DNA from: Methanospirillum hungatei
GTDB taxonomy: Archaea > Halobacteriota > Methanomicrobia > Methanomicrobiales > Methanospirillaceae
Assembly (NCBI RefSeq): GCF_019263745.1
Contig: NZ_CP077107.1
Location: 3,224,001 to 3,288,000 of the forward strand
Direction of reading: 5' to 3'
DNA length: 64,000 nt
This document shows, one piece after another, positions 38,249 to 53,487 of the stretch. Both the position numbers and the translations under genes were made by a program. Position 1 is the stretch's first letter. Each line of letters begins with the position of its first letter. The notes below the pieces were generated by a model. That model worked only from the letters and a program-made list of their open reading frames with translations. It ran no database searches and was not told the DNA's origin.

Positions 38249-38689
38249 TCAACCTGACTCTTCCCGGACCATGGTATCGAACAACTTTTTCTGAGCAGGT
38301 TTTTTACAACACTCTTCAATAAAAGCAACGACTTTCATGAGTTTGTCATATGATTCAGGGGACAATCCATGTTCCATGATACATGCATCATGATCTGCAA
38401 CATCTGTATCGACTCCGGCAAGTTCCAGCAGATTACGGAGTATGGTGTGAGATTGCTTTGTTCTCTCAGCAATATCCCTCCCTTCAACAGTCAAAGTAAC
38501 TCCTCCGTATGGTTCGTAATTTACTAGACCTGCATCCTGGAGCCGTTTGAATCCGTCAGTTACTGTTGCCGGGGTAATGCTTAATGCTGCAGCGATATCC
38601 CGTGATTTTGCATATCCCTTTTCCATTGAGATCTCATAGATTACTTCTAAAAGATCTTCATTTCTCCGGGTTACTTTTTCTTCGGCCAT
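38249..38689 (-). CDS. DtxR-family metal-dependent transcriptional regulator
   Basis: The 146-residue protein has an N-terminal winged helix (about 8-70: NEDLLEVIYEISMEKGYAKS, SITPATVTDGFKRLQDAGL). The dimerisation/metal domain contains HDACIMEHGLS, matching the Cys-x-x-Glu-His ligand signature of DtxR/IdeR, and there is no SH3-like third domain. It should repress genes when bound to Fe(II) or Mn(II). It lies upstream of rubrerythrin on the same strand with a 245-base gap, so the two are probably separately transcribed. Several Cys residues near the C terminus (EECCKKP) are unusual. Confidence 0.9.
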   Translation of the reverse strand: MAEEKVTRRNEDLLEVIYEISMEKGYAKSRDIAAALSITPATVTDGFKRLQDAGLVNYEPYGGVTLTVEGRDIAERTKQSHTILRNLLELAGVDTDVADHDACIMEHGLSPESYDKLMKVVAFIEECCKKPAQKKLFDTMVREESG

Positions 38690-45398: not shown

Positions 45399-45770
45399 AC
45401 TATCACGTTCGATTGGGAAGACTATGAGGTTTCTGGTGTTAACCAGAGAGGCTGTAGATGTAAACACAATATCTGGTAAGTTCCAGGATTTCTTCCCGCG
45501 TTTTTCCCCAGAGAAAATAAACCAAAGGACAAAAGATTGAAAATTGAAAGTTTAAACAAAATTTAAGGAAATTAATGGTAGATCTAACAAACCAATGTAA
45601 GATATTAATTTTTTCTGTAGTAATTTGCAAATGAGCAAAATTAATTGTTCGTTTCATTATATTCTTGTTTAATGTAATTATTTTGAGATGTAGAAATTCT
45701 ATTTAGGATCCACTAATTTAATATATTTAAACATAATAATTTAGATGAGTCTAAAATTATTAGGTGAATC
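45399..45770. promoter_or_regulatory. Divergent upstream region with two TTTAG-N6-CTAAW operators at the feo promoter
   Basis: These 372 bases hold no gene. A TATA-like box (TTTAATATATTTAA, about 45716-45730) lies before feoA. It is flanked by two inverted repeats of one type: TTTAG-GATCCA-CTAAT at 45702-45717 and TTTAG-ATGAGT-CTAAA at 45740-45755. The second would overlap the expected transcription start, leaving a leader of about 20 bases with a GGTGA Shine-Dalgarno at 45763-45767. The layout is that of a repressor-controlled iron operon. DtxR-family proteins bind similar TTAGG/CCTAA-type repeats, so the DtxR-kinase fusion or the DtxR at 38249 are candidates. Confidence 0.65.
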
Positions 45771-46013
45771 ATGGCCACCATTACACTCGAGAAATTACCA
45801 CCCGGATCATCGGGAACGATTACGTCAATTCTTGGTGATTCAGTTATTCGCCGTAGATTAATGGAAATGGGAGTACTTCCCGGTTCAGAGTTAACCCTCA
45901 TTAAGTGGGCCCCTCTTGGAGATCCTGCTGAATGCAGTATCCGTGGGTACAAATTGTCTCTTCGGAGAGCAGAAGCAGCTTTGATCACTGTTGAACCAAA
46001 ACTGAGGAAGTGA
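45771..46013 (+). CDS. feoA: Ferrous iron transport protein FeoA (first copy)
   Basis: This is an 80-residue SH3-like protein with the FeoA pattern: LPPGSSGTITSILGDSVIRRRLMEMGVLPGSELTLI, then DPAECSIRGYKLSLRRAEAALI. FeoA is a small cytosolic partner of the FeoB transporter. It starts the operon feoA-feoA-feoB. The Shine-Dalgarno GGTGA is four bases before the ATG. Only six bases separate it from the next feoA. Confidence 0.93.
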   Translation: MATITLEKLPPGSSGTITSILGDSVIRRRLMEMGVLPGSELTLIKWAPLGDPAECSIRGYKLSLRRAEAALITVEPKLRK

Positions 46014-46019
46014 TGTATT

Positions 46020-46244
46020 ATGGTTCCCTTAAGCCTTTCAAAAGCCGGAGACCAGGTTGTAGTCCGGTCTATATGTGGAACTGGTCACCTGGCAAAAACA
46101 CTTGGTCAACTTGGGATCATAATCGGAATTGAACTTACCATTATTCAAAAAGCAAAAGAATCTGTGATTGTCCGGATTGGAGAGAGTAGATATGCTCTTG
46201 GAGCCGGAGCAGCCAGTATGGTTCTCGTCGAACCACTCAAATGA
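46020..46244 (+). CDS. feoA: Ferrous iron transport protein FeoA (second copy)
   Basis: This is a 74-residue FeoA-type SH3-like protein: LSKAGDQVVVRSICGTGHLAKTLGQLGIIIGIELTII, then IVRIGESRYALGAGAASMVLV. It is clearly diverged from the first copy, so the two may form a heteromeric partner for FeoB, as in other organisms with paired FeoA proteins. Its stop codon overlaps the Shine-Dalgarno of feoB (ATGAGG), giving tight coupling. A decayed duplicate of this 3' end lies at 42688-42748. Confidence 0.9.
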   Translation: MVPLSLSKAGDQVVVRSICGTGHLAKTLGQLGIIIGIELTIIQKAKESVIVRIGESRYALGAGAASMVLVEPLK

Positions 46245-46251
46245 GGAATTT

Positions 46252-48240
46252 ATGAAAGATATTCGTATATTACTTACAGGAAACCCCAATGTGGGAAAAA
46301 CCACCCTGTTTAACAGCATATGTGGAGTTCATCAACACACTGGGAATTATCCAGGAGTGACTGTTGAGATAAAAGAAGGAAAACGACAAATAAATGAATA
46401 TTCATTGATTGTCTCCGATCTCCCCGGAACGTACAGTCTTTCTGCCTTTACTCCGGACGAACAGGTTGCTCGTGATGCACTTCTGACCTCACATCCTGAT
46501 GCTGTTGTTCAGATTATTGATGCCACAAATGTTGAGAGAAACCTGTTTTTAACGACTCAACTGATGGAAATTGGCATTCCAATGGTAATAGCTCTGAATA
46601 TGTGCGATCTGGCAGATGAACAGGGAATTTCCATTGATGCAGAGTGTCTTGAAAAGAATCTAAAAATTCCAGTCGTTCGGATTGTAGCACGAAAAGGAGA
46701 GGGAATAGACACATTAATCGATACAATCATCAGAGTCACAAAAGAGAAATCTTCCGTCCAATCAAAAGAGATCGAATATCCACATTCTGTCACATCTCAT
46801 ATCAACGAAATTGGATCATTTCTCACCTCTCACTCATCATCCCTAGGAAGTTTATCACCACAGTATGCAGCAATCCGGCTTATGGAAGGGGATGAACACC
46901 TTGAAAAAATGCTCCATGATAAGGGACTTGCGATTCCATTTATTGACAAGGCGGATCCGGCAGAGCGGGATGGAATTGCAGAAGATATTCTACTGGCACG
47001 ATACCGGACAGCAGAAGAAATCACTACTTGTTCGGTTACATGCACCATGGGGCGTGTTATGCCTGCAGATCTTATTGATCAGGTATTGACACACCGAATC
47101 TTTGGAATCCCAATCTTCCTTTCATGTATGTGGTTTGCATTCCAGCTCACCTTTAGTGCATCCAATCCATTCCTTGTAGGAATAGAGTACGTTTTCGGGT
47201 ATTTCACTGAATTGATGAATAACGTCGACATGGATCCATTTATCCGGTCCTTCCTGTCTGATGGAGTAATTGGTGGTGTTGGTTCAGTGCTTGTCTTTGT
47301 TCCAAGCATATTTGTCATGTTTTTGCTACTCTCTATCCTTGAAGATACCGGATACCTAGCGAGGGCCGCTTTTGTAATGGATAGGCTCATGCATTCAGTC
47401 GGGCTTCATGGGCGTTCATTCATTCCGTTCCTCATAGGTTTTGGATGTAATGTGCCGGCCATCATGGCAACCAGAACACTCCAAAGCAAAGCAGACCGGA
47501 TAATTACCATTATCACTATCCCGTTCATGTCCTGTGCAGCACGGCTTCCGGTATATGTTCTCTTCGCGGGTGTATTCTTCGGAGCAGCAGCAGGAAATGT
47601 TATATTCTTCCTGTATGTCCTTGGAATCGCGGTTGCAATCCTGTCAGCTCTGATATTCCGGCGTCTGGTGTTCAAAGATGAGCCATCTCCCTTCATCATG
47701 GAACTGCCACCATACCGGAGACCAAGCGGATTTGCTGCAGCGGTCCATATGTGGTTTAAAGGCAGGGAATATCTGAAACGTGCAGGTCTTGTCATATTTG
47801 GAGGAGTTATCGTCGTCTGGGCATTAGCAACCCTTCCGGTAGGAGTGGAATATGGATCTGCAGAAAGCCTTGCAGGAATCATCGGGCAAGCATTTCAACC
47901 AATATTTGCTCCGCTTGGGTTTAACTGGCAATTGGTTGTAGGACTCATCTTCGGATTCATCGCGAAAGAAGTGGTTGTAGGATCTCTTGGAACCCTCTAT
48001 GGAGGAGAAGAGATGCTTGAATCATCCCTTGCTGCAGACCCGACTTTAAGTCCGGTAATTGCCCTTGCATACATGGTCTTTGTCCTCCTCTACCTTCCCT
48101 GTGTGGCTGCACTGGGAGTAATCAGGCAGGAGATGGGGAACTGGAAATGGACGGGAATTGCAATCGGATGGGGAATACTCGTCGCATATGTCTTCGCGTT
48201 CATCATATTACACGTAGGTTCACTCGTAATCGGAGCATAA
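46252..48240 (+). CDS. feoB: Ferrous iron transporter FeoB
   Basis: This 662-residue protein imports Fe(II). The N-terminal G domain has G1 GNPNVGKTTLF, G3 DLPGTYSLSAF and G4 ALNMCD; a helical spacer follows, then the membrane domain with about eight helices. The two Gate segments contain the signature GFGCNVPAIMATRTL and FMSCAARLPVYVLFAG. GAGG just upstream supports the ATG at 46252, although the frame is open to 46168. Its stop is three bases before the next gene, so the transporter is part of a six-gene operon. Confidence 0.97.
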   Translation: MKDIRILLTGNPNVGKTTLFNSICGVHQHTGNYPGVTVEIKEGKRQINEYSLIVSDLPGTYSLSAFTPDEQVARDALLTSHPDAVVQIIDATNVERNLFLTTQLMEIGIPMVIALNMCDLADEQGISIDAECLEKNLKIPVVRIVARKGEGIDTLIDTIIRVTKEKSSVQSKEIEYPHSVTSHINEIGSFLTSHSSSLGSLSPQYAAIRLMEGDEHLEKMLHDKGLAIPFIDKADPAERDGIAEDILLARYRTAEEITTCSVTCTMGRVMPADLIDQVLTHRIFGIPIFLSCMWFAFQLTFSASNPFLVGIEYVFGYFTELMNNVDMDPFIRSFLSDGVIGGVGSVLVFVPSIFVMFLLLSILEDTGYLARAAFVMDRLMHSVGLHGRSFIPFLIGFGCNVPAIMATRTLQSKADRIITIITIPFMSCAARLPVYVLFAGVFFGAAAGNVIFFLYVLGIAVAILSALIFRRLVFKDEPSPFIMELPPYRRPSGFAAAVHMWFKGREYLKRAGLVIFGGVIVVWALATLPVGVEYGSAESLAGIIGQAFQPIFAPLGFNWQLVVGLIFGFIAKEVVVGSLGTLYGGEEMLESSLAADPTLSPVIALAYMVFVLLYLPCVAALGVIRQEMGNWKWTGIAIGWGILVAYVFAFIILHVGSLVIGA

Positions 48241-48243
48241 ATC

Positions 48244-48690
48244 ATGGAAAATACAACATACCCTCACCAATATCTTTATGGATGGACAGGACTTGTAGCA
48301 CTGACCACCTTTGTCGCAGGACTCCTCTCAATCCTTGAAGGGGCCGGGATCGTAACCGGATTATTTATCTTACCGGATATTCCGGGAGGATGCATCCTGA
48401 TCATGATATCAGCATTGTTTGGATCTGCCTTCTTAAAAGGCAAAACAGATCGCCCAGGCTGGATAAGTTTCTCATATATCGGAGCTCTCCTCCTTGTAGT
48501 GTTCGCGGGATGTGCCATACTTGTTGAAGGTGGAAATGTGCTCACCCTCATCATGGAAGGTGAAGAAGCAAATCTCCTGACAATCATCAGTTCATCTTTC
48601 ATTTGGGCAGCAATTCTTGTGTTGCCACTTCTGGCCGGAGTATCAAAACTCTTATACGGATGTTCATGTGGTGGTGAATACTGTGAGTGA
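48244..48690 (+). CDS. Four-helix membrane protein of the feo operon
   Basis: The 148-residue protein starts three bases after feoB and has four hydrophobic segments (about 14-40, 43-60, 75-95 and 112-138). It ends in a small Cys motif, GCSCGGEYCE, on the side after the last helix. I do not recognise the family. Its place in the operon suggests a role as accessory subunit or regulator of FeoB, and the Cys tail may bind metal. The next gene overlaps its last eight bases. Confidence 0.75.
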   Translation: MENTTYPHQYLYGWTGLVALTTFVAGLLSILEGAGIVTGLFILPDIPGGCILIMISALFGSAFLKGKTDRPGWISFSYIGALLLVVFAGCAILVEGGNVLTLIMEGEEANLLTIISSSFIWAAILVLPLLAGVSKLLYGCSCGGEYCE

Positions 48691-49045
48691 AGGTCTTGAA
48701 ATCCTTCATCTTATCAGCCAGAGGGGGGGATGCCTCCTCTCCGAACTTGCCACCGAACTTGGGATTCCGAAAAACTCGGTACAATCCTGGGTATCTATGC
48801 TGTGTAGCACCGGATACCTGAAACGTGACGGAGAGGAATTATCGGAATGTTCCTGCAGGAAAAGTAGCATGAAATGTGTCTGTTGTCATTGTTCCTGTGA
48901 AGAAAAGACGGTATCCAGTGAAAACAGAATTGAACTTACCGAACGTGGGCGTTCTCTCATCAGGAGGAAATGGGATGAAAAAACCGGATCAGAAATTATC
49001 TCAAGCAATGGAAGATTATCTCGAAACAATATATGTACTCAGTAA
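48683..49045 (+). CDS. FeoC-like winged-helix protein with a dense Cys cluster
   Basis: The GTG at 48683 is chosen because GGTGGTGA (48670-48677) lies five bases upstream. The 120-residue protein has a winged helix (about 5-50: LEILHLISQRGGCLLSELATELGIPKNSVQSWVSMLCSTGYL). It is followed by a loop with seven cysteines in 18 residues (ECSCRKSSMKCVCCHCSC). This matches the layout of FeoC, whose wing loop holds cysteines that can bind an iron-sulphur cluster, but the cluster here is denser and the protein longer. It could sense iron or oxygen and act on feo transcription or FeoB stability. The 3' end overlaps the next gene by 71 bases. Confidence 0.75.
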   Translation: MSEGLEILHLISQRGGCLLSELATELGIPKNSVQSWVSMLCSTGYLKRDGEELSECSCRKSSMKCVCCHCSCEEKTVSSENRIELTERGRSLIRRKWDEKTGSEIISSNGRLSRNNICTQ

Positions 49046-50213
49046 AGACAAAGGATATGCACGAACAGGCGAAATAGCCCGATCTTTAAGTGTCTCACCT
49101 TCGTCAGTGGTTGAGATGGTCGGAAAGATATCAAAGCTTGGTTTTGTTGAATGGAGGCGGTATGAGGGTGTTTTTCTCTCTCCGGAAGGCAGATTACGAG
49201 GAGAAGTAATTCATATCCGTCATGAAACTCTGCGTCAATTTTTTGAGTTTATCGGGGTTGCCCCGGATATTGCTAATAAAGAAGCATGTATTATCGAACA
49301 TGAATTATCTCCCATTACAACCTCAGCAATTGGAAACCTGGTTAGTTTTTTAAACACTCAGGCAGGTTCACAAACGATATCTGCTCTTGAACTCTTTCTC
49401 AAGATGCAGGGCGTTGGAATAGTGTGGGATAGTCCTGAAAAAATCCAGGAATCAGCCCTCAAAGAGACTGTTATTCATTCGGTTCTAAAAAATCAGGCAA
49501 ATCATGATATCCTCTCGGTGATCACCCGCCATGATCTCCTTAATACGACAACGTCTCTTCACCGGTATCTTGATCTCTTAAAAACAATGAGCTCCGGTGA
49601 GGAGATGAATCTGGTAATATCTAGAATTGAGGCCACAATTCAAGCCATCAACAGACAGATTTCAACCAGTTCAGATCATCTCATACCAGGCCATGCAGGA
49701 CACATGTGGATGAACCTGGGCAAGTTAATATCCCATGCTCAATCCATGATTCAAACAGAATCAGTTGTTATAGAACATGATGTATGGGCTGTTGAAGTAT
49801 TTGGGGATTCACTTCTCGAAAAAGTAGTATATAATCTATTTGACAATGCTATCCGACATGGAGATGGTGTATCCCGAATAAATAGCGGATATGTGCAAAA
49901 AGCTGACTCAATTCTCTGGTATGTACAGGATAATGGAAAAGGAATGCCTGAGGCGGAAAGAGAACATATATTCCGAGCTTCATCACAGACAGATAAAGGA
50001 AAAGGATTATATCTAGCATATCAGATTCTCAATGCTTGCGGAATGCAGATATCTGAATGTGGGGCCCAATATGGAACGGGAGCACGGTTTGAGATCACCA
50101 TTCCTGATGGGTTGTATCGTTTCGTTGAAGTTCAGAAATCCAAATCCATATCCGTTTTTGGTCAGGATTTTGAATGTCCTAAAAACACGGCCATAATTTC
50201 TCATGGTCAATAA
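48975..50213 (+). CDS. DtxR-type metal-responsive regulator fused to a histidine kinase module
   Basis: One uninterrupted 412-residue frame with GGAGG (48963-48967) before its ATG. Residues 8-70 are a winged helix very like MntR/DtxR (MEDYLETIYVLSKDKGYART). Residues 75-140 are the dimerisation/metal domain with IRHETLRQFFEF and ACIIEHELS, retaining Cys, Glu and His ligands. From about 175 the protein becomes a kinase: H box VITRHDLLNTT with His186, N-box NLFDNAIRHGD, DNGKGMPEAE and DKGKGLYLAYQIL, and ATP-domain end GTGARFEITIPDG. The kinase half belongs to the same type as the other seven kinases here. It closes the feo operon. Function as a metal-sensing, DNA-binding kinase is inferred. Confidence 0.9.
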   Translation: MKKPDQKLSQAMEDYLETIYVLSKDKGYARTGEIARSLSVSPSSVVEMVGKISKLGFVEWRRYEGVFLSPEGRLRGEVIHIRHETLRQFFEFIGVAPDIANKEACIIEHELSPITTSAIGNLVSFLNTQAGSQTISALELFLKMQGVGIVWDSPEKIQESALKETVIHSVLKNQANHDILSVITRHDLLNTTTSLHRYLDLLKTMSSGEEMNLVISRIEATIQAINRQISTSSDHLIPGHAGHMWMNLGKLISHAQSMIQTESVVIEHDVWAVEVFGDSLLEKVVYNLFDNAIRHGDGVSRINSGYVQKADSILWYVQDNGKGMPEAEREHIFRASSQTDKGKGLYLAYQILNACGMQISECGAQYGTGARFEITIPDGLYRFVEVQKSKSISVFGQDFECPKNTAIISHGQ

Positions 50214-51103: not shown

Positions 51104-51532
51104 ATGGATAAGAAAGATCCTTTAAAAGAAGAATTAAATGAAAGCCTTGTTGAATTTTTTGACAGATTTACCTCCTGGGAATCATCAGTTATTGAATCAA
51201 GTAATCTGAAAATATCTGATGCTCATGCCATCGAGATTCTCGGCCATTATGGTCGGATGAATATGAAAGAACTGGCAGGAAAACTAGGTATTACGACAGG
51301 AACAACGACAATTACGGTAGATAGACTGGAACGGGAAGGCTATGCACAACGGGTCAGAGCTGAACATGACAGGCGATCGTACATAATTGAATTAACAGAA
51401 GACGGGGCGTTGGCATATGAAGAACATCACCGTCATCACCTGAATCTGGCAAGTGAAATCGCATCCGTTCTAGGTGATGATGAGACGAGGATCTTTATTG
51501 ATCTGCTGAAAAAAATCAACGAGCATATCTAA
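51104..51532 (+). CDS. MarR-family transcriptional regulator
   Basis: The 142-residue protein has the MarR winged helix. A helical N terminus (LNESLVEFFDRFTSWESSVI) precedes helix-turn-helix ILGHYGRMNMKELAGKLGI, TTGTTTITVDRLEREGYAQR, and a wing with the conserved acidic/basic RAEHDRRSYIIELTEDG (DxRS). A GGAG Shine-Dalgarno is at 51092-51095. The P-type ATPase gene follows after 20 bases, so this is probably its metal- or stress-responsive repressor, acting at the palindrome just upstream. Confidence 0.92.
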   Translation: MDKKDPLKEELNESLVEFFDRFTSWESSVIESSNLKISDAHAIEILGHYGRMNMKELAGKLGITTGTTTITVDRLEREGYAQRVRAEHDRRSYIIELTEDGALAYEEHHRHHLNLASEIASVLGDDETRIFIDLLKKINEHI

Positions 51533-51552
51533 TAAACGGTGGCAGAAAGACC

Positions 51553-53487
51553 ATGTCAAAAAGCCAGATATCCTGTGAATCAGAAGCCTGTAATTGTCAT
51601 GGATATGGATGTTCGCATGAGCATACAGAGAGAGAACTGAAAATAAACCTCATCAGACTTGTAACAGCAGGATTTTTTGTTACACTGGCAGTCCTCACAG
51701 AATATAGATTTATACCTCTCACGGAACTAGAAATCCCTGCAGCTTTTATTGCTCTAGCTCTGACTGCATATCCTATCCTGAAAGAAGCGGCTTTGGGACT
51801 TATCAAGGGTGTATGGAATGTATGCGAATTGGCAGCCCTGGCCCTTGTTGCAGCAGTTCTCATTGGTGAGTTTACCGCTGCAGCCGAAATAGCATTTATT
51901 CTCACCATTGGTGAAATGGTTGAAGACTATCTTTATGCCAGGACTCAAAAAGATATTCATTCACTCATGCTTCATGTCCCCACCACTGCGAATATAATTA
52001 GAAATGAAGAGATAATTGAGATCGCGGTTGATGATATCAAGATCGGAGACATAATTTTAATTAGGCCTGGTGAAAGAATTCCGGTAGATGGAGAGATCCA
52101 GAAAGGCCATTCAGATGTTGATGAATCGTTCCGAACCGGAGAAAGTCTTCCGATTCAGAAAAATCCAGGAGATACTGTCTACTCGGGAAGCATTAACCTG
52201 GATGGCATACTGGTCATTACTGCCATTAAACTTGCAAATCAGTCATCTTATGCGAAAGTGGTAGAACTTGTACAAAAAGCAGGAATGCGACGACCACCAT
52301 CACACCCGATGATAGATACATTTGCACACTATTACACCCCCCTAATTCTTGTCATTGCTTTTGGAACTGCGTTCGTCACGAACGATATTGTCCGGGGAAT
52401 CACAGTTCTTATCGTTGCCTGTCCGTGTGCACTTCTTCTTGCAACTCCGTCAGCAGTGCTAGCAGCTATCGGGCCGGCAGCGAAACAAGGTATCCTCATT
52501 AAGAGTGGCTTATTTTTGGAAATGTGTAAAAAAATCACAACAATAGTTTTTGATAAAACCGGGACACTAACCTCTGGTGAGATGAACGTAACAACCATAA
52601 TACCCGAAAATGGATCAACACAAGAAGAAGTCTTAAAAATTGCCGGTTCCGCGGAACGATCATCTCCTCATCCGATTGCACGGGCAATCCTAAAAGAAGC
52701 AAAAAGAACAGGAATTGTGTTTTCAGGAGTTGGAACTGGCCGACATATCCCTGGCAAAGGAGCTGCAGATACATGGAATGGTACACCTGTTCTGGTTGGT
52801 AATAGAGATTTTTTTAAAGAAAACTCAATCCCGGTATTAGAATCGGCAAAACAAGATAATATCCAGAAGAATATGTTTGAGACCGAGGTGTTGGTGGCTA
52901 AAAACGGTGAATATATCGGAAAAATCCTCATATCAGATACGCTCCATACCGATACAAAAAAAGCCCTGGCTTCACTCAGGCATTTAGGATATTCACAATA
53001 TGCAATAATCACTGGAGACAATAAAAAAGCTGCACAGGCAATTGCAGATGAATTGGAAATCCCAGAATCTATGACCTATTCCGGATTGTTACCATCAGAT
53101 AAAGAAAAATTCGTAGCAGATCTCCAGGAAAAAGGAGAACGAGTATGTTTTGTAGGTGATGGAACAAATGACGGTCCAGCTCTTATTCGGGCGGATATCG
53201 GAGTAGGAATGGGAAGTCGTGCAAACACTCTGGCATTGGAGAGTTCGGGAGTAATTCTCATGGAACAAGGGCTTTCATCACTTCCGACATTTATGAAACT
53301 GGGCAAGAAGACATCCCAGACAATAAAAGAGAATATTTCGCTTGCTTTACTGCTAAATTGTATGCTCATCGGATTAGCTGCAGGAGGCTTAATTACACCA
53401 GTTATCGGGGCAATAGGCCACCAGTTTGCAACGATCATTGTTCTGGTAAACTCTATTCGATTATCATATACTTTCTCTGGATACTAG
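51553..53487 (+). CDS. Heavy-metal P1B-type ATPase
   Basis: The 644-residue efflux pump has a short Cys/His-rich N terminus (CESEACNCHGYGCSHEH) in place of a full HMA domain. The transport motif is CPC in VACPCALLLATPSA, the phosphorylation motif is DKTGTLT, and SPHPIARAI and GDGTNDGPALIRADIG are present. The last two helices read NISLALLLNCMLIG and IGHQFATIIVLVNSIRLS. These lack both the Lys/Asp pair of Zn/Cd pumps (P1B-2) and the MSxS pattern of Cu pumps (P1B-1), so the metal cannot be called. It is co-transcribed with MarR. Confidence 0.93.
   Translation: MSKSQISCESEACNCHGYGCSHEHTERELKINLIRLVTAGFFVTLAVLTEYRFIPLTELEIPAAFIALALTAYPILKEAALGLIKGVWNVCELAALALVAAVLIGEFTAAAEIAFILTIGEMVEDYLYARTQKDIHSLMLHVPTTANIIRNEEIIEIAVDDIKIGDIILIRPGERIPVDGEIQKGHSDVDESFRTGESLPIQKNPGDTVYSGSINLDGILVITAIKLANQSSYAKVVELVQKAGMRRPPSHPMIDTFAHYYTPLILVIAFGTAFVTNDIVRGITVLIVACPCALLLATPSAVLAAIGPAAKQGILIKSGLFLEMCKKITTIVFDKTGTLTSGEMNVTTIIPENGSTQEEVLKIAGSAERSSPHPIARAILKEAKRTGIVFSGVGTGRHIPGKGAADTWNGTPVLVGNRDFFKENSIPVLESAKQDNIQKNMFETEVLVAKNGEYIGKILISDTLHTDTKKALASLRHLGYSQYAIITGDNKKAAQAIADELEIPESMTYSGLLPSDKEKFVADLQEKGERVCFVGDGTNDGPALIRADIGVGMGSRANTLALESSGVILMEQGLSSLPTFMKLGKKTSQTIKENISLALLLNCMLIGLAAGGLITPVIGAIGHQFATIIVLVNSIRLSYTFSGY

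Follow-up and report, generated by a model that had tools for sequence, protein, structure and literature searches.

The feo operon of Methanospirillum hungatei described here lies within a stretch of 64,000 nucleotides (hereafter the window). It is composed of two feoA copies, feoB, a gene for a membrane protein, a gene for a small winged-helix protein with a cysteine cluster and, in the last position, a single gene that joins a repressor of the MntR/DtxR type to a histidine-kinase core (Table 1). The start of feoB is likely the ATG at 46252, where its homologues begin, the frame itself being open from 46168. The gene for the cysteine-cluster protein (48683-49045) shares 71 bases with the fusion gene in a different frame; its product may be FeoC-like in layout (FeoC being an iron-sulphur regulator), and it gave no match to the FeoC family.

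Near the 3' side of the operon, at 51104-53487, a gene for a MarR-family regulator is followed by one for a heavy-metal P-type ATPase, an arrangement conserved in several relatives. A lone MntR-like DtxR protein of 146 residues is encoded on the reverse strand at 38249-38689, near a flavodoxin-like gene. Elsewhere in the same genome (C1, about 844-846 kb; L052:3081-5575), a second, divergent feoB is found directly 3' of the gene for a DtxR-FeoA protein.

Table 1. Features of the feo operon, its promoter and the fusion gene (positions of the window unless a locus is given)
Feature	Position	Strand	Basis
TATA-like box tttaatatat of feo promoter	45717..45726	+	sequence; aligned A/T-rich box in relatives; putative function
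Palindrome TTTAGATGAGTCTAAA, likely operator, over expected transcription start	45740..45755	+	conserved in nine promoters; binder presumed
feoA, first copy	45771..46013	+	Pfam FeoA, E 5e-22
feoA, second copy	46020..46244	+	Pfam FeoA, E 2e-15
feoB, ferrous iron transporter	46252..48240	+	Pfam FeoB_N, Gate, FeoB_C
Predicted membrane protein, 148 aa, function unassigned	48244..48690	+	no family match; operon member conserved in genus
Small winged-helix protein, Cys cluster CSCRKSSMKCVCCHCSC	48683..49045	+	HTH_IclR/HTH_24 matches; kept in all operons
Fusion gene, MntR/DtxR-type repressor and histidine-kinase core, 412 aa	48975..50213	+	ORF, Pfam, PDB relatives, model
Winged-helix DNA-binding domain, residues 1-68, ligands D14 and E17	48975..49178	+	PF01325; pLDDT ~97 at 11-60
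Metal-binding/dimerisation domain and one extra helix, residues 70-146, ligands H83/C105/E108/H109	49182..49412	+	PF02742
Variable linker, residues 147-163	49413..49463	+	pLDDT about 42-44; least conserved stretch between domains
Two-helix dimerisation/phospho-acceptor domain, residues 164-230, H-box TRHDLLN	49464..49664	+	model, alignment
Phospho-acceptor His186	49530..49532	+	invariant in nine copies; aligns with kinase H-box His
ATP-binding catalytic domain, residues 243-383, N/G1/F/G2 boxes	49701..50123	+	HATPase_c; motif table; CpxA, HK853, ZraS fold match
REC-PAS-PAS gene in relatives	L041:1593-2900, L044:8521-9810, L046:7124-8197, L047:6766-8091, L048:5050-6315		

Repressor and kinase in a single frame

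DtxR-family metalloregulators and two-component kinases normally form separate regulatory layers. The initial annotation had described their fusion in one frame at the end of the feo operon, and our analysis confirmed this description. The gene is one open frame of 412 codons, with an AGGAGG ribosome-binding site just 5' of its ATG, and its product has three Pfam matches that all exceed the curated cut-offs: Fe_dep_repress (PF01325; residues 7-66, E 5e-19, 68.7 bits against a cut-off of 26), Fe_dep_repr_C (PF02742; residues 70-129, E 1e-10, 41.9 bits against 27) and HATPase_c (PF02518; residues 280-378, E 8e-13, 49.3 bits against 26.4). Pfam HisKA gave no match on the protein. Among PDB structures, residues 10-128 come closest to the manganese-responsive MntR and residues of about 157-378 to histidine kinases. 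With 112.6 bits against a cut-off of 138, the protein misses the NCBIfam MntR equivalog NF003025; it resembles MntR without qualifying as that equivalog.

A structure model built from a 51-row alignment (mean pLDDT 81; the nine-orthologue alignment alone gave a weaker model, with a mean pLDDT of 55) contains both folds. It runs from the winged helix through the dimerisation domain and a helix up to residue 146, followed by a low-confidence linker, the two-helix domain with H186 and the ATP-binding domain, and its Foldseek matches include CpxA, HK853 and ZraS as well as MntR. Since the pTM of the model is just 0.48, the relative placement of the two halves is not predicted by it, and the linker, being variable and predicted to be flexible, provides no rigid path between repressor and kinase.

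Distribution and origin of the fusion gene

The full-length fusion was found in 9 of the 12 Methanospirillum genomes, at the same place and always last in the feo operon (in G011 a short contig covers the last three operon genes alone), and the eight other copies are 47-71% identical to that of the window. In G003, a genome that is 99% complete, the operon is intact and the fusion gene is a remnant (L074:7048-7322), which has a stop codon at residue 41 followed by a frameshift and loses homology past about residue 80. G004 and G005 are incomplete drafts that also lack this feoB. Absence of the fusion from related genomes and a frameshift between the halves had been named beforehand among the observations that would count against it; the join is intact in all nine genomes. 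An architecture so unusual and confined to one genus might be suspected of being two genes joined through sequencing error or misassembly, but the same intact join recurs in isolates and in metagenome assemblies, the joint gene has its ribosome-binding site and selection spans the join. We consider such an artefact practically inconceivable, since the same full-length protein in nine genomes of the genus, from separate assemblies, excludes it.

In the 393 genomes sampled from the phylum, the Halobacteriota, and among close relatives outside the genus, no other full-length fusion was found. The next-best matches in the phylum were kinases, at about 160 bits, and DtxR proteins standing alone, at about 124 bits; a fusion of comparable parts should clearly outscore both. 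When 84,980 species were scanned for two peptide patterns of this family, the fusion was found just in Methanospirillum or in Methanomicrobiales records of the same set, and the viral contigs searched gave no match. A 554-residue DtxR frame in G032 was considered as another fusion and rejected, being a DtxR-FeoA protein of the ordinary kind whose frame is over-long. As far as we searched, the DtxR-kinase fusion appears to be restricted to the genus Methanospirillum. Our literature search found no description of such a protein; each half is ordinary, and the combination is new as far as the searched literature goes.

With respect to its origin, the fused front halves form one clade in the tree (100/100), whose moderately supported neighbours (82/84) are unfused MntR-like proteins from the same order, whereas the other DtxR genes of the window genome, including the one at 38249-38689, branch apart. 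Among these unfused relatives, the repressors of G063 and G068 (family f4, same order) are about 52% identical to the front half and have the same ligands, and their genes close operons with the order FeoA, FeoB, membrane protein and repressor, like that of the fusion. They differ from it in having no kinase and in their promoter palindrome. The kinase half, in turn, is 28-41% identical to PAS kinases found in the window and in the order, and is a member of the soluble kinase family that is abundant in these methanogens, with which it shares the TRHDxxN H-box and the N, G1 and G2 boxes; these kinases differ in having PAS or REC input rather than a DNA-binding metal sensor. Since the same operon slot is occupied by an unfused MntR-like repressor in another family, a resident repressor probably acquired the kinase, in line with the recruitment of a local kinase proposed in the initial annotation. 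The simplest reading is that the joining of the kinase core to the resident feo repressor probably took place before the known Methanospirillum species split.

Metal site and candidate operator

Alignment supports the metal ligands that had been recognised from the sequence and gives six positions in all. D14, E17, H83, E108 and H109 correspond to D8, E11, H77, E102 and H103 of the MntR of Bacillus subtilis (PDB 1on1, 6kta relatives), whose winged helix and dimerisation domain align with the fusion over about 120 residues and whose fold matches it with a TM of 0.85 over 133 columns at 37% identity. The fusion differs from MntR in its additional kinase core and in the sixth ligand, C105, which takes the position of MntR E99, the place of Cys102 in DtxR. 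The ligand roles given to these positions are those established for MntR and DtxR. All six are invariant in the nine copies, and the unfused MntR-like relatives have the same pattern. DtxR/IdeR and the DtxR-FeoA proteins of methanogens, which are also linked to feo, have the Cys-x-x-Glu-His motif in common with the fusion, although Met10 of DtxR/IdeR is replaced by Asp14 and the kinase core takes the place of the SH3/FeoA domain. A C-terminal extra domain is usual in these proteins; the earlier statement that DtxR proteins normally act alone was too strong, since many have an SH3 or FeoA domain at the C terminus, including one in this very genome. The metal site of the fusion is a hybrid of the MntR and DtxR selectivity patterns, so that Fe(II) and Mn(II) are not distinguishable from sequence, and the operon context favours Fe(II).

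In the nine feo promoters that we aligned, similarity is limited to the TATA-like box and the motif TTTAGATnAnwCnAAr, about 18 bases 3' of the centre of the box, a spacing that would fit the expected archaeal start site. In the window this motif is the palindrome TTTAGATGAGTCTAAA, perfect except for its four central bases; its distance from feoA is constant in 9/9 promoters compared, and its window version has no second exact counterpart in the genome. The pattern derived from these promoters is close to unique in each genome, with 14 occurrences over the twelve: nine are the source feo promoters themselves, and the remaining five are scattered, with no recognisable metal gene alongside. The putative regulon of the palindrome is the feo operon itself, of which TTTAGATGAGTCTAAA is the likely operator. 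As we envisage it, Fe(II) or Mn(II) would fill the D14/E17/H83/C105/E108/H109 site and the metal-loaded dimer would bind the palindrome TTTAGAnnnnTCTAAA that overlies the predicted start of feo, blocking transcription. The fused metal switch is most likely what turns off the genes for iron uptake. G003 keeps the palindrome though its fusion gene is broken, and the operator could belong instead to the cysteine-rich winged-helix protein of the operon or to another DtxR paralogue. The feo promoters of the G063/G068 family have a different conserved palindrome 5' of feoA, TTCGGAAA..ATTTCCGAA (L086, L089), which is a likely operator of the unfused repressor.

Kinase half and possible signalling

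The kinase core was said to be complete, with His186, the N-box and two G-boxes, and the window copy indeed has all of these, as well as the F box. H186 and the RHD motif are unchanged in the nine copies, G006 included, and six of these copies have an intact N-box, G1 and G2. The first glycine of G2 is replaced in G009 and G011, and the G001 copy is without the Asn of a possible phosphatase motif. The G006 copy (L046:5105-6325) has lost the Asn of the N-box and the glycines of both G1 and G2, its repressor half and H186 being conserved; it appears to be a natural pseudokinase version. With the ATP site dead in this lineage, catalysis is not essential in every lineage, and it may have been lost once.

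Selection was compared between domains through dN/dS, from pairs with unsaturated synonymous change. The values for the pairs G010/G011 and G010/G009, respectively, were 0.05 and 0.04 for the DtxR half, 0.08 and 0.03 for the phospho-acceptor domain, 0.17 and 0.16 for the ATP domain (synonymous change being near saturation in the latter pair) and 0.6 and 1.0 for the C-terminal tail. These values place both halves under purifying selection, stronger on the DtxR half: the kinase value is well below 1, so that this half is selected, though less than the repressor.

We favour, with belief and doubt about evenly balanced, a reading in which the fusion is a metal-dependent autorepressor of feo that gained a kinase core in the Methanospirillum ancestor and signals its metal state to an unlinked receiver. 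The kinase core would be carried by the same dimer, and because it hangs from the repressor dimer, the metal state, perhaps together with DNA binding, would also set its autokinase/phosphatase state; phosphate would then pass to an unlinked receiver protein. Here we infer which metal acts, the binding of the operator by the fusion protein, the coupling of half to half and any receiver partner. We propose more tentatively, as a possibility worth holding, that one dimer has two coupled outputs, namely repression at its own operator and a kinase that reports metal status to the large two-component network of the cell.

The fading ATP site could also be taken to mean that the DtxR half alone matters, the kinase core being an extra dimerisation or stabilising domain whose catalysis is disappearing. 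This would account for the position of the core where other DtxR proteins have an SH3/FeoA domain, for the weaker constraint on the kinase half, for the lack of a linked receiver and for G006, which keeps repressor and operon without any ATP-site motif. We nonetheless find it unlikely, given a phospho-acceptor and RHD motif that are invariant even in G006, ATP-site boxes that are intact in two thirds of the copies and a kinase half that is itself under selection.

The feo operon of the window copy contains no receiver gene. In five relatives (G001, G006, G007, G008 and G009) a convergent REC-PAS-PAS gene lies downstream of the fusion; G002 has a remnant of it (L042:8322-8528), it is absent at the locus in the window genome (G000) and in G010, and no close ortholog was found elsewhere in these three genomes. 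As an obligate partner it was rejected, since its loss does not track the loss of kinase motifs: copies without the gene keep the motifs, and G006, which has the gene, does not.

An unlinked partner would be in keeping with the finding that M. hungatei kinases are generally not linked to partners (PMC4704411); cytoplasmic kinases that, like the fusion, have no linked partner are common in this species (PMC4704411, PMC5847659). In the sections on kinase sensor domains consulted in a survey of archaeal two-component systems, the domains described are PAS, GAF, MEDS, PocR, 7TM and CACHE, and the account includes no DNA-binding metal sensor ahead of a kinase (PMC5847659). The same survey mentions archaeal phospho-acceptor proteins without kinase activity, for which roles in phosphotransfer or phosphatase activity have been suggested (PMC5847659). 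Such proteins would also fit G006, and they lend something to a reading in which the flow is reversed: the kinase half would be the input, and phosphorylation or ATP binding would alter the grip of the repressor on its operator, the signal being the energy state, the redox state or phosphate donated by a partner receiver, so that iron uptake would follow the metal and another cue. The DNA-binding half does provide a direct output already, and no receiver is linked, but the protein has no sensor domain besides DtxR that could bring a second signal, and we regard both this direction of flow and these inputs as quite improbable.

On the reading that we favour, the combination of repressor and kinase in Methanospirillum means that one protein may both repress feo and report metal status. 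A fusion conserved across the genus at feo would be a defined case where phosphorylation could be under the direct control of a metal sensor in the cytosol, in archaea that have a great many kinases without a linked partner. Because a likely operator, the ligands and the phospho-acceptor have been identified, two purified proteins together with one DNA fragment would suffice to test the coupling.

Between the fusion genes of G008 and G002 (L041:3754-4986, L042:6231-7463), dS is 0-0.02 in the kinase part and 0.19-0.41 in the DtxR part and linker, a contrast that suggests recombination inside the fusion gene.
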